Source: Gammaproteobacteria bacterium (GTDB lineage: Bacteria > Pseudomonadota > Gammaproteobacteria > Eutrophobiales > Eutrophobiaceae). Taken from it: a stretch of 64,000 bases of DNA. Made by a program: the position numbers and the translations under genes. The stretch's first letter is position 1. Each line of letters opens with the position of its first letter. The stretch spans positions 1 to 64,000 of the forward strand of contig JACPSH010000047.1 in NCBI GenBank assembly GCA_016193395.1. Direction: 5' to 3'. The notes under the pieces were generated by a model. That model was not told the origin of the DNA, made no database searches, and saw nothing but the letters and a program-made list of their open reading frames with translations. Shown piece by piece: positions 2,451 through 8,652 of this stretch.

Positions 2451-2726
2451 ATGACCCAATTGCGGAAGAACCCGGCGGGCACCGCGCGCCGGGCTGGAAG
2501 TCCCGGTCTCAGTGACAGCGTCAGGGACGCCATCGAGCGGTATTTCCGCGACCTGGACGGCCACGACCCGGGGGGTCTGTACGAGCTGGTGCTGACACAG
2601 GTGGAACGTCCCCTGTTCGAAGCGGTGATGAGGAATACGCGCGGCAATGTCAGCCACGCGGCGCAGGTGCTCGGCCTGAACCGCGCGACCCTGCGCAGCC
2701 GTCTGAAGAAGTACGGACTGGATTAA
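2451..2726 (+). CDS. fis: Fis-family DNA-binding protein
   Basis: 91 aa; C-terminal HTH NTRGNVSHAAQVLGLNRATLRSRLKKYGLD; prmA/purH neighbourhood. Confidence 0.88.
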   Translation: MTQLRKNPAGTARRAGSPGLSDSVRDAIERYFRDLDGHDPGGLYELVLTQVERPLFEAVMRNTRGNVSHAAQVLGLNRATLRSRLKKYGLD

Positions 2727-2814
2727 CCCCCCGTCCCCGGCTACCTGGACAGTTGCGCGGGGCGCAGCGTCCGGCGTCGGCGCGACGGCGCGCAACCGGG
2801 AGCATATTTGACCC

Positions 2815-4374
2815 ATGTCGAAGGTGAAGCGCGCCCTGGTCAGCGTGTCCGACAAGACCGGCATCGTCGAATTCTGCCGGCAACTGTCCGGCCTCGGTAT
2901 CACCCTTCTTTCGACCGGCGGAACCGCCGCCACGCTGCGCAACGCGGGGCTGGCGGTCCTCGAGGTATCGGATTACACCGGGTTCCCGGAGATTATGGAC
3001 GGGCGCGTCAAGACCCTGCACCCGAGGATCCACGGCGCGTTGCTCGCGCGGCTCGACCTGGACGGGGAGATCATGCGCGCGCACGGCATAGAACCCATCG
3101 ATCTGCTCGTAGTGAACCTCTATCCATTCGAGGCGACGGTCAGCCGCGAGAATTGCAGCCTGTCCGAGGCCATCGAAAACATCGACATCGGCGGGCCGGC
3201 GATGCTGCGGGCCGCCGCCAAGAACAGTGGCCGCGTCGGCGTCCTGGTGGATCCCGCCGATTACGCGCCAGTGCTGTCCGAGCTTGGCGAAGGCGGCACG
3301 CTCGGCGACGCCACGCGCATGCGGCTTGCGCAGAAGGCCTTCGCCCACACCGCGCGTTACGACTCGGCGGTCTCGAATTACCTCAATGCCATCGACCCCG
3401 GTAACGGCCAGCTCGACTACCCGCTGGTCTTTTCCATGCAGTTCCGTAAATTGCAGGATCTCCGCTACGGCGAGAACCCTCACCAGACAGCGGCGTTCTA
3501 CGCTCAACCCGATGCGCCGGATGGGACGCTGGCGGCCGCGAGGCAGCTGCAGGGCAAGGAGCTGTCTTACAACAACATTGCGGACGCCGACGCCGCGCTC
3601 GAATGCGCGCTCGGTTTCGTCGAAGCGGCGTGTGTCATCGTCAAGCACGCGAATCCCTGTGGCGCCGCCGAGGGCGCGACGATTACGGAGGCTTACGAAC
3701 GGGCTTATGCGACCGATCCCACCTCGGCCTACGGCGGCATCATTGCCTTCAACCGCAGTCTGGATGCGCGCACGGCGCAGGCGATTGTCGAGCGGCAGTT
3801 CGTGGAGGTCATCGTTGCCCCGGAGATCGAACCGGCGGCGCTCCCGGTGACCAGAGGCAAGCCGGGCATACGCGTCCTGCGCTGCGGCGCCAGGCCGGGC
3901 CCGCTGCGCCAGATCGATCTCAAGCGCGTGAGCGGCGGCCTGCTGGTGCAGGACGCGGATTCGGCGACCGTGGAGGACGCCGCGCCGAAGGTGGTCACGC
4001 GGCGCGCCCCGGCGCCGGCCGAATTATCGGATCTGCTGTTCGCGTGGCGCGTGGTGAAGTACGTCAAATCGAACGCCATTGTCTATGCGCGCGATCGCCG
4101 CACTATCGGCATCGGCGCCGGCCAGATGAGCCGCGTGTACAGCGCGCGCATCGCCGGCATCAAGGCATCCGACGAGGGGCTCGAGATATCCGGCTCGGTG
4201 ATGGCCTCGGATGCGTTCTTTCCGTTCCGCGATGCGATCGACGCCGCCGCGGCCGCCGGGATCACGGCGGTGATCCAGCCGGGCGGCTCGGTGCGCGATG
4301 AGGAAGTGATCGGCGCGGCGAACCAGAACGGCATGGCCATGGTTTTCACGGGTATACGGCATTTTCGCCATTGA
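2815..4374 (+). CDS. purH: Bifunctional AICAR transformylase / IMP cyclohydrolase
   Basis: 519 aa; MGS-like N-terminus [37 protein letters not shown]. Confidence 0.96.
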
Positions 4375-4391
4375 ACGCCGGGAACAGGCGC

Positions 4392-5675
4392 ATGGACATC
4401 CTGGTCGTCGGGGGTGGGGGACGCGAGCACGCCCTGGCCTGGAAAGCCGCGCAATCGAAACGGGCCGGTCGCGTCTATGTCGCGCCGGGCAATGCCGGCA
4501 CGGCGCGGGAGCACGGCGTGGAGAACGTGGCCATTTCTGCGGAGGACATCGCCGGCCTGAGGGATTTTGCACTGGCCCGGGCCATCGGTCTGACGATCAT
4601 CGGGCCGGAGGCGCCGCTGGTCGCCGGCATTGTCGATGATTTCAATTCCGCCGGTCTGCGCTGCTTCGGCCCGAGCCGTGGAGCCGCGACGCTGGAGGGC
4701 TCGAAGAGTTTCACCAAGGCGTTCCTGTCCCGGCACGGGATCCCGACCGCAGACTTCGCAAGCTTCACGGACGCCGAATCAGCGAAGCGCTATATCCTGG
4801 AACAGGGCGCGCCGATCGTGGTCAAGGCCGATGGTCTGGCCGCCGGAAAAGGCGTGGTGGTTGCCTCGAACGTCGATGAGGCGCAGCAGGCGGCCGATGC
4901 GATGCTTATCGGAAACCGCTTCGGCAACGCCGGAAAGCGCGTTGTCATCGAGAAATTTCTGGAAGGCGAAGAGGCAAGCTTCATCGTCATGTGCGACGGC
5001 GGCGCCGTCCTGCCGCTGGCGAGCAGCCAGGATCACAAGCGGCGCGACGACGGCGATCGGGGACCCAACACAGGCGGCATGGGCGCCTATTCGCCGGCGC
5101 CCGTGGTCACGCCCCGGGTACATCAGCGGATCCTGTCGGAAATCATCCAGCGGACCGTCGACGGCATGCGCGCGGAGGGCCTGCCCTATACGGGCTTTCT
5201 CTACGCGGGGCTGATGATTGCGCCGGACGGCGCGCCGCGTGTAATCGAGTACAACTGCCGCTTGGGCGATCCGGAGGCGCAACCGATCCTGATGCGGATC
5301 AAGTCGGACCTGGTCGAGCTGTGTTTACATGCGCTGGAGGGCAGCCTGGCGGATTGCGCGGCGATCTGGGACGAACGGGCGGCCCTGACGGTGGTGCTCT
5401 CCGCGGCCGGGTACCCCGACGGCGTGCGCAAGGGCGACGCCATCTCGGGCCTGGATGTCCCTCTCGACGACGATGTGAAGATATTTCATTCCGGCACACA
5501 GGGCCGCGACGGCGCGGTCGTCACTGCCGGTGGACGCGTGCTCTCGATTACGGCGCTCGGCGTGAGCGTGGCCGCCGCGCAGAAACGGGCCTACGCGGTG
5601 GCGGGCGGCATAAGCTGGCCCGGTATGTTCTACCGCAGAGACATCGGTTTTCGCGCCGTCGCGCGCCGCTTTTGA
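4392..5675 (+). CDS. purD: Phosphoribosylamine-glycine ligase
   Basis: [18 protein letters not shown] start, ATP-grasp motifs, [14 protein letters not shown]; track ORF opens at 4371 but the canonical N-terminus is at 4392. Confidence 0.95.
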
Positions 5676-5695: not shown

Positions 5696-7237
5696 ATGAA
5701 AGGCTCGATGTTCCAGAGGTCGCTTGCGACGCAACGCGAATTCGCGGACTTGCGCGAGCGTCTGCGCGGAGCGGTCCGTCTCGACCCGCTGCCGGTTCGG
5801 AGCACATCGCGCTCCTATTTCGATACCTTCGACTGGCGGCTCTATAACAAGGGACTGGCGCTGGAATTCGATGCCTCCGCCACGGCAAAGGCGCGCCTGA
5901 GAGAAATCGGCGCGGCCGCCGCCTTTGAAGAACAGGCGCTGAAGTCGGTCCCGAGGTTCGCTTCAGGTTTCCCGGCCGGCGCCCTTCGCGATCAGCTGGA
6001 CGAGACGCTCGATGAGCGGGCACTGCTGCCCCTGGGCAGCGTGAACCTGCGGGTCACGCCGTACCGGGCGAGCGATGCGCAGGGGAAGATCCTGTACTTC
6101 CTCGAGAAGGAACAGATCCTGCAGAAGGGGGCCGGGCGGCGGGGCCGCACGCTGGCGACCCACGTCCGGGTCCGCACATTGCGTGGTTACGAAAAGGCCG
6201 GCCGGCAGGCGTTGTCGTTGCTCAAGAAGGGGAAGGCAGTTTCCAAATCGCCGGCCGATCCCTTCGGGCCGTGCATGTCCATGCTGGGGAGAGTGCCAGG
6301 AGAGTATTCGACGCGGCTGCGCATCAGGCTCTCGCCCGAAATCGGCGCGCGCGCCGGAATCTCGGAAGTCCTGTTGTTCCTGCTCGATATCATGGAACGC
6401 AATGTGCCGGGAGTGGAGGAAGACCTGGATTCGGAGTTCCTGCATGACTTCCGTATCGCCGCCCGTCGCAGCCGTTCCCTGATCAGCCGGACGCTGGGCA
6501 TATTCGCCGGCCAGGAGATGGCGCGCATCAAGCGCGATTTTTCCTGGCTGAGTCAGATGTCCTCCGGACAGCGCGATTTGGATGTCTTTCTGCACGATCT
6601 GCCGGGGTACCAGACGGAACCGGACATGGGCAGGCCGGAACACCTGGAGCCCTTACGGGCGCTGCTGGAAGAGGATCGGGCCGGGGAACACGCGCGGCTC
6701 ACGGCCGCGTTACGCTCGCGGCGTTTTCTTGGTTTTGTCGATGACTGGCGCGAATCGCTGGCGGGCGGCGCCGCGACGTCCGGCGCGGGGATGCCTCTGG
6801 CGATCGTGGCGAACGGATCCATCCGCCGGCAGTACCGAAAGCTGATGAAGAAAGCGCCCGAGGCCGGACAGTACAGCGAGGCATTACACGACCTGCGCAA
6901 GAACGGCAAGCAGTTGCGCTATCTGCTCGAAGCATTCCGATCGCTTTATCCGTCGGAGGACATAGAAGAAGTGATCGCGCAATTGCGAAGGCTGCAGAAC
7001 GTGCTGGGCGATATCGTCGACTTCCACGTGCAGCGCACGCGCCTGTTGGGCTGGCGCGACCGGCTCCTGGCGCGCCCCGGGACGCCGGCGGATACCATCG
7101 AGGCGGTCGACCGGCTGGCACAGAAGTTCGACGCCATGGAGAAACAGGCGGCGGACGGGTTTCTCGCCTGCCACGCGCGCTTCGCGGCGGCCGAAAACAC
7201 GGAACGGATCATCCGCCTGTTCGGAGAAGCGGCGTGA
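5696..7237 (+). CDS. CHAD domain-containing protein with degenerate CYTH-like N-terminus
   Basis: In-frame ATG at 5696; CHAD-type motifs EFLHDFRIAARRSRS and EALHDLRKNGKQLRYLLEAF. Confidence 0.85.
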   Translation: MKGSMFQRSLATQREFADLRERLRGAVRLDPLPVRSTSRSYFDTFDWRLYNKGLALEFDASATAKARLREIGAAAAFEEQALKSVPRFASGFPAGALRDQLDETLDERALLPLGSVNLRVTPYRASDAQGKILYFLEKEQILQKGAGRRGRTLATHVRVRTLRGYEKAGRQALSLLKKGKAVSKSPADPFGPCMSMLGRVPGEYSTRLRIRLSPEIGARAGISEVLLFLLDIMERNVPGVEEDLDSEFLHDFRIAARRSRSLISRTLGIFAGQEMARIKRDFSWLSQMSSGQRDLDVFLHDLPGYQTEPDMGRPEHLEPLRALLEEDRAGEHARLTAALRSRRFLGFVDDWRESLAGGAATSGAGMPLAIVANGSIRRQYRKLMKKAPEAGQYSEALHDLRKNGKQLRYLLEAFRSLYPSEDIEEVIAQLRRLQNVLGDIVDFHVQRTRLLGWRDRLLARPGTPADTIEAVDRLAQKFDAMEKQAADGFLACHARFAAAENTERIIRLFGEAA

Positions 7238-8004
7238 AGGCGCGCGTGCTGGCCTGCTACAACTTCAAGGGCGGGGTCGGCAAGACCGCCGCCGCCGTCA
7301 ATCTGGCGTTTGCGGCGGCCCGCGATCCGAAGCGCGTGCTGATCTGGGACCTTGACGCGCAGGCGGCGGCGACGTTCTATTTCCGCGTAGAGCCCGGGTT
7401 CAAGGGCGGCGCGAAAAAATTGATCGGCGGCAAACGCGATCTGGAAGATTTCATCAAGGCGACCAATTACGAAAACCTCGACCTCATGCCCTCGGATTTC
7501 TCGTATCGAAACCTGGATCTCTACCTGCACAAGCGCGGCCGGACCATCGAGCGCCTCGCACAACTCATCGCGCCGTTACGGAGTCAGTACGACTACGTGA
7601 TTCTCGACTGCCCACCGGGCATATCCCTGGTGTCGGAAAACATCTTCCTGGCCGCCGACGCGCTCATCGTACCCCTGATTCCCACGACCCTGTCGGCGCG
7701 TGTCTACGAAAAACTGAAGGCATTCTTCGCCAAGCGGCGGGACGAATTTCATCCGGCCCTGCTGCCGTTTTTCTCGATGACGGATCGGCGCCGCCGCTTG
7801 CACCGCGAGGTCGAGGAGGAGTTCAGCCACCGCCACCCGGAGCTGCTCCGCACGAGCGTCGCGAACGCGAGCAGCATCGAGCAGATGGGCCGGTACCGTG
7901 CGCCGGTCCAGGTTTATGCCGGTGCGAGCCCCGAAGCGAAGGCCTTTGACAGCCTCTGGCTCGAGATCCGCGAGCGGCTAGAGCAGGCCGAAAGCACCAG
8001 CTGA
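7234..8004 (+). CDS. Orphan ParA/MinD-family ATPase
   Basis: Deviant Walker A KGGVGKTAAAVNLAF, VLIWDLDAQAAAT, YDYVILDCPPG; overlaps the upstream CHAD gene by 4 nt; no ParB in window. Confidence 0.88.
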   Translation: MKARVLACYNFKGGVGKTAAAVNLAFAAARDPKRVLIWDLDAQAAATFYFRVEPGFKGGAKKLIGGKRDLEDFIKATNYENLDLMPSDFSYRNLDLYLHKRGRTIERLAQLIAPLRSQYDYVILDCPPGISLVSENIFLAADALIVPLIPTTLSARVYEKLKAFFAKRRDEFHPALLPFFSMTDRRRRLHREVEEEFSHRHPELLRTSVANASSIEQMGRYRAPVQVYAGASPEAKAFDSLWLEIRERLEQAESTS

Positions 8005-8319: not shown

Positions 8320-8652
8320 ATGGCCAAGAAAAATACCGTGACCCCAGCCAAACAGACCAAATCACAGATCCTTGCATCGATTGCCGCCGACACCGGCCTG
8401 AGCAGGAGACAGGTGGCCGGCGTCCTGGATACGCTCGCGAGTCTCGCGCAGAGCCATTTGAGGACGCGCGGATCCGGCCAGTTCACGGTTCCTTCCCTGG
8501 GCATCAAGCTGCGCCGCGTCATCAAGCCGGCGCGCGCGGCCCGCATGGGCGTGAATCCCTTTACCGGGCAGCAGATGATGCTCAAGGCGAAGCCGGCGAC
8601 GACATCGGTCCGGGCATCGGCGCTGAAGGCGCTCAAGGACGCTGTAGCCTAG
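8320..8652 (+). CDS. HU-family DNA-binding protein
   Basis: SQILASIAADTGLSRRQVAGVLDTL..., PFTGQQMMLKAKPATTSVRASALKALKDAV; ATG at 8320. Confidence 0.85.
   Translation: MAKKNTVTPAKQTKSQILASIAADTGLSRRQVAGVLDTLASLAQSHLRTRGSGQFTVPSLGIKLRRVIKPARAARMGVNPFTGQQMMLKAKPATTSVRASALKALKDAVA

Follow-up and report, generated by a model that had tools for sequence, protein, structure and literature searches.

The question raised by this locus is why a gene for a ParA-family ATPase lies directly behind, and overlaps with, a gene for a CHAD-domain protein. Both genes are in a 64,000-nucleotide stretch of contig JACPSH010000047.1 of a Gammaproteobacteria bacterium (hereafter the window). A sequence-only reading of the window had proposed that they encode a dedicated system for positioning or segregating polyphosphate (polyP) granules, with the CHAD protein as the cargo adaptor.

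The CHAD and ParA Genes of the Window

The features of the locus are listed in Table 1. The identification of a CHAD-domain gene and of a ParA-family gene with a KGGVGKT motif held in both cases. The CHAD protein matched PF05235 (E = 6e-50, residues 228–450) as well as the CtCHAD structures 3E0S/6QV7 (E = 7e-35), and its gene is the single CHAD gene of the genome. The ParA protein matched AAA_31 (E = 2.5e-34) and carried KGGVGKT at residues 12–18. An AlphaFold model of the CHAD protein, built from two sequences, had a pLDDT of 44 and was discarded. Moreover, H250, R253, R257, and R293, which correspond to H253, R256, R260, and R296 of CtCHAD, were found in the window protein and in 83–84 of the 85 paired CHAD proteins. 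Mutation of these residues is reported to weaken or abolish polyP binding, in CtCHAD or in its archaeal counterpart (PMC6537752). The window protein possesses both the CHAD domain and the conserved His/Arg polyP-binding residues by which CHAD proteins, or phosins, are recognized.

Table 1. Features of the CHAD-ParA locus, with positions in the window.
Feature	Position	Strand	Basis or remarks
Protein of 513 aa with CHAD domain (ATG 5708 as alternative start); putative partner of ParA and adaptor for polyP granules	5696..7237	+	PF05235, CtCHAD structure matches, ParA-linked subfamily
N-terminal domain of about 205 aa without Pfam match; probably degenerate CYTH/TTM-like, catalytic ExExK absent	5696..6310	+	Alignment A4; profile comparisons
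CHAD domain, polyP-contacting CtCHAD residues kept	6377..7045	+	H250, R253, R257, R293 = Ct H253, R256, R260, R296
GTGA start-stop overlap of CHAD and ParA genes	7234..7237	+	ParA start GTG 7234–7236, CHAD stop TGA 7235–7237
ParA/MinD-family ATPase, CHAD-linked clade, 256 aa, GTG start	7234..8004	+	AAA_31 E = 2.5e-34; clade of 95 rows, support 100/99
Deviant Walker A KGGVGKT with signature lysine, residues 12–18	7267..7287	+	Invariant columns of alignment A1
Basic patch RRRRLHR, residues 185–191; candidate non-specific DNA-binding site	7786..7806	+	Alignment A1
Divergent HU-like protein, probably not a core part	8320..8652	+	PF00216 E = 1e-11; nearby in four family genomes

The overlap had been described as ATGA. 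The two genes indeed overlap by 4 bp, but the letters are GTGA, as the ParA gene starts with GTG. A fis-purH-purD-like run (names assigned by eye; window positions 2451–5675) precedes the pair. Because this run is on the same strand and the gap between the purD-like gene and the CHAD gene is 20 bp, the pair may be transcribed from the fis-purH-purD-like operon. Inspection by eye of the window and of 20 neighbourhoods, in which CHAD is the upstream gene, showed no ParB-like gene beside the pair.

An HU-like gene had also been noted behind the ParA gene. This gene is real (PF00216, E = 1e-11), but it is not coupled to the pair because it begins 315 bp downstream of the ParA gene. When compared with canonical HU, its product scored 26.9 bits, for which the cut-off is 157 bits. 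The gene is kept near the pair in four genomes of the family (that of the window and those of L071, L072, and L079). HU was rejected as a core component, since outside the family it was absent among the neighbours examined, and the HU-like gene probably lies outside the core module.

Conservation of the Pair

CHAD operons were reportedly described by Iyer and Aravind in 2002. Across the 369 class genomes, profile A1 matched 43 ParA relatives with at least 300 bits. For 41 of these 43 best relatives, the gene immediately upstream was a CHAD gene in the same orientation, an arrangement far beyond chance. In the first set of relatives, ParA adjoined CHAD in 10 of the 20 CHAD-bearing genomes, the window's own excluded. 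Viewed from the CHAD side, ParA was found at 43 of the 135 CHAD places in the class; 36 of these places were among the 62 with a long frame and 6 among the 66 with a short one. The distinct CHAD-ParA pairs were no more than 48 bp apart in all cases (86/86), and in 36 the two genes overlapped by 4 bp. One genome, G324, contains two pairs (G324:C101 and G324:C269).

The pairing was also found beyond the class. In a scan of contigs from 85,000 species, the top match was from a Desulfofustis metagenome-assembled genome and was also CHAD-paired. Such ParAs were CHAD-paired in 5 of 6 cases in Desulfobacterota and in 30 of 37 cases in Bacteroidota, including Chlorobaculum tepidum. On the plasmids of Paracoccus marcusii, P. 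aestuarii, and P. liaowanqingii, the pair is part of the gene run CHAD-ParA-CYTH-NUDIX, which was also found in G525, a genome from another class of the phylum. Lack of conserved adjacency outside the source genome had been named as an observation that would count against the proposal. The proposal clearly withstood this check, since the pair is present in Gammaproteobacteria-like relatives, Alphaproteobacteria (Paracoccus), Desulfobacterota, and Bacteroidota/Chlorobia.

In a phylum-wide sample, most ParAs of this clade stand alone, and about seven loci were paired among those examined. CHAD was found somewhere in 57 of the 68 ParA-bearing genomes versus 146 of the 331 others (Fisher p = 1e-9, phylogeny ignored) and was not found in the remaining 11 ParA-bearing genomes. 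Within the class, CHAD was present elsewhere in 8 of the 15 genomes with an unpaired ParA. The unpaired ParAs of a large clade, from several families, were repeatedly near a truA-like gene and a gene for an RnfH-like small protein, as judged by eye (L186, L188, L194, L197, L200, L204, and L206). In L196, L205, and L209, another protein was encoded behind the unpaired ParA, with TPR in L205. The clade ParAs on plasmids of Pontibacter, Halomonas, and Marinobacter were considered as CHAD pairs and rejected, as no CHAD adjoined them. On plasmid pMAQU02 of Marinobacter nauticus, the clade ParA (L177:3998-4744) has phbB and a gene for pyruvate kinase in its vicinity, and no CHAD was found in the stretch around it.

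The CHAD-Linked ParA Clade

The window ParA possesses K12 G13 G14 V15 G16 K17 T18, which corresponds to the xKGGxxK[T/S] motif with the signature lysine of ParA/MinD (A/D) ATPases, as well as the aspartates of Walker A' (D41) and Walker B (D125). Similar to the Walker A residues, D41 and D125 were invariant in alignment A1. Judged from the sequence, its ATPase motifs are intact. The basic patch RRRRLHR falls in the family pattern FFSMxDRRKRLHRE, of which R186 and H190 were invariant in A1, and is a candidate for non-specific DNA binding.

In a maximum-likelihood tree of 122 ParA rows, whose bootstrap was not fully settled, the A1-type ParAs formed one clade of 95 rows with support of 100/99, separate from the other sampled ParAs. 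The label "CHAD next door" changed 9 times on this tree versus 39.7 times with shuffled labels, and the first branches of the clade were all CHAD-paired, suggesting that the pairing is probably ancestral in the clade and was lost in some subclades.

In the window genome (an assembly of 96.65% completeness), PF13614 matched the window ParA and gave one weak match of 32 bits. No canonical chromosomal ParA was seen in this assembly, which may reflect an assembly gap. C. tepidum has an additional ParA-type protein that scores higher than its CHAD-linked ParA.

The N-Terminal Domain of Paired CHAD Proteins

Nearly all paired CHAD proteins possess an N-terminal domain of about 200 amino acid residues. 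Because a few of them lack it, the domain may be dispensable for the function of the pair. Five of its columns were invariant in alignment A4 (D43, R108, K131, G164, and Y165). CYTH models did not match this domain in 11 members of the CHAD subfamily. The ExExK motif was found in 2 of 76 ParA-linked N-termini and was absent in the other 74, including that of the window, whereas it was carried by three unpaired full-length CYTH-CHAD proteins in the sample (L135, L137, and L148). The window protein is without the catalytic N-terminal CYTH domain with ExExK that characterizes YgiF-type CYTH-CHAD triphosphatases.

A mixed CYTH set gave no match in a first profile comparison with the N-terminal domain. 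Comparison with a cleaner set of genuine CYTH domains gave a weak colinear match (pairwise E about 1e-4, probability 20–57%), and a search of PDB sequences with the N-terminal-domain profile returned nothing credible. The domain is probably a dead CYTH relic. It would also be the likeliest surface for contact with ParA. No clear activator motif was found in it, because the domain is poorly conserved outside the five invariant columns.

Link to Polyphosphate

The CHAD protein paired with ParA in G1049 is CtCHAD of C. tepidum (99.7% identity over 313 amino acid residues). CtCHAD has been crystallized with polyP, the chain of which passes through the pore of the protein (PDB 6QV7/6QVA; PMC6537752). 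In G1049, a single gene separates the pair from ppk1, which is upstream and in the same orientation. Many other pairs are also flanked by polyP genes, such as ppk1, ppk2, ppx, sixA, phoU, and those for CYTH and NUDIX proteins. The flank sets varied among pairs and included ppk1; ppk2 with ppx and sixA; phoU; sixA alone; and pstAB-phoU-phoB. The window genome contains ppk1, beside which are matches to ppx and phoU. In G195 (L153:1171-4189), the clade ParA is 7 bp behind ppk1, and CHAD is a short remnant interrupted by stops.

Given the recurrent pairing, the polyP-bound CtCHAD crystal, and the polyP and phosphate genes in the flanks, a link of the ParA-CHAD pair to polyP is well supported, and so is the earlier suggestion that the two proteins form a dedicated ParA system with a CHAD partner.

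At a further locus (L319; G249:C51), a PHA_gran_rgn protein and a lysine/alanine-rich histone-H1-like protein are encoded next to the CHAD-ParA pair. The latter resembles AlgP/PhaF, a known granule-spacing type, and has no Pfam match.

Proposed Mechanism and Alternatives

What the pair does with polyP is less direct. It likely functions as a two-gene system of the ParA/MinD type for positioning or segregating polyP granules, in which CHAD would be the cargo adaptor; the positioning role is an inference. Other CHAD proteins have been reported to localize to granules. The CHAD protein would bind polyP, as its C. tepidum counterpart does in the crystal (PMC6537752), and sit on the granule. The co-translated ParA would form an ATP-bound dimer that binds the nucleoid non-specifically. 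The granule-bound CHAD protein would then contact ParA, presumably via its N-terminal domain, stimulate the ATPase, and release ParA locally. Granules would travel up the resulting ParA gradient by a Brownian ratchet similar to that of McdA/McdB, and would be spaced and shared out at division.

The main rival is that ParA does not move granules and is instead an ATP-driven switch, which recruits polyP enzymes (Ppk, Ppx, CYTH, and NUDIX proteins) to the CHAD-coated granule or releases them and so controls nucleation, size or growth, or turnover. The operon-like runs of pairs with CYTH and NUDIX hydrolases, the pairs that adjoin ppk1, ppk2, ppx, or sixA, and the ParA directly behind ppk1 in a genome without an intact CHAD are all consistent with such a switch. 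The CHAD-ParA unit, however, is constant while the flanking enzymes vary among lineages, and studied ParA/MinD relatives with the same motif set position cargo (PMC10241942). The switch is considered unlikely, and granule positioning is preferred.

It is very improbable that the ParA serves chromosome or plasmid partition with CHAD as its partner and polyP as an incidental matter. Such a role would fit the window genome, in which no second protein matched AAA_31 strongly, and the plasmid location of the Paracoccus copies. Similar to ParABS (Soj/Spo0J), the window ParA possesses ParA-family ATPase motifs, and it matched 1WCV (E = 1e-15). However, no ParB-like gene was noted by eye beside the pairs in the window and 20 neighbourhoods, the ParAs of the pairs form a clade apart from the other sampled ParAs, and C. 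tepidum encodes a further ParA-type protein with a higher score. Moreover, the pairs are flanked by genes of polyP and phosphate metabolism, and the core polyP-binding residues are kept in almost all CHAD partners. Finally, mere co-expression, in which the two genes would be part of the phosphate response with products that act separately, could account for the several clade ParAs that stand alone with CHAD elsewhere. It is hardly credible, however, given that the genes form close, overlapping pairs of constant order in no fewer than four deep lineages, and that ParA and CHAD co-occur even when unlinked.

Comparison With Known Positioning Systems

Among known systems, granule positioning by the CHAD-ParA pair would be comparable to carboxysome positioning by McdA/McdB, which also consists of a ParA/MinD ATPase and a dedicated cargo partner, works without ParB, and is proposed to act by a Brownian ratchet on the nucleoid (PMC6328274, PMC13052382). 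Similar to McdAB-type systems, the CHAD-linked ParA has a conserved partner gene, whose product in C. tepidum was crystallized with polyP, its putative cargo (PMC6537752). Different from McdA/McdB, the putative cargo is the polyP granule, with a CHAD protein that binds polyP as the partner, and the ParA, with KGGVGKT and its signature lysine, belongs to a clade of its own. AlgP of Pseudomonas aeruginosa also acts on polyP granules, which are evenly spaced through the nucleoid (PMC9239181), but it is a histone-H1-like protein without ATPase. A 2025 review names AlgP as the polyP positioning factor, describes no ParA/MinD or ATP-dependent factor for polyP granules, and regards energy use as unknown (PMC13052382).

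The CHAD partners share the CHAD domain and polyP-binding residues with phosins and other CHAD proteins, such as CtCHAD, YgiF, and the Ralstonia CHAD proteins, of which CtCHAD is itself ParA-linked. YgiF-type CHAD proteins differ by their catalytic CYTH domain with ExExK, and the sampled ones have no adjoining ParA. A term search for ParA in the available part of the CtCHAD paper found no mention of a ParA partnership (PMC6537752), and a survey of multiple ParAs in Halothiobacillus does not mention CHAD (PMC10241942). No paper joining CHAD with the CHAD-linked ParA was found in the open full-text literature; subscription papers and preprints were largely outside this search, and an earlier description is possible. 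On balance, it seems probable that ParA and its pseudo-CYTH-CHAD adaptor constitute an undescribed, ATP-driven organelle-positioning system for polyP granules that is widespread from Chlorobia to Proteobacteria, with an inorganic polymer as the cargo of a ParA-type system.

How bacteria place polyP granules and pass them on is an open question, for which the CHAD-ParA pair is a concrete candidate in many bacteria. For the adaptor of C. tepidum, a polyP-bound crystal structure already exists.
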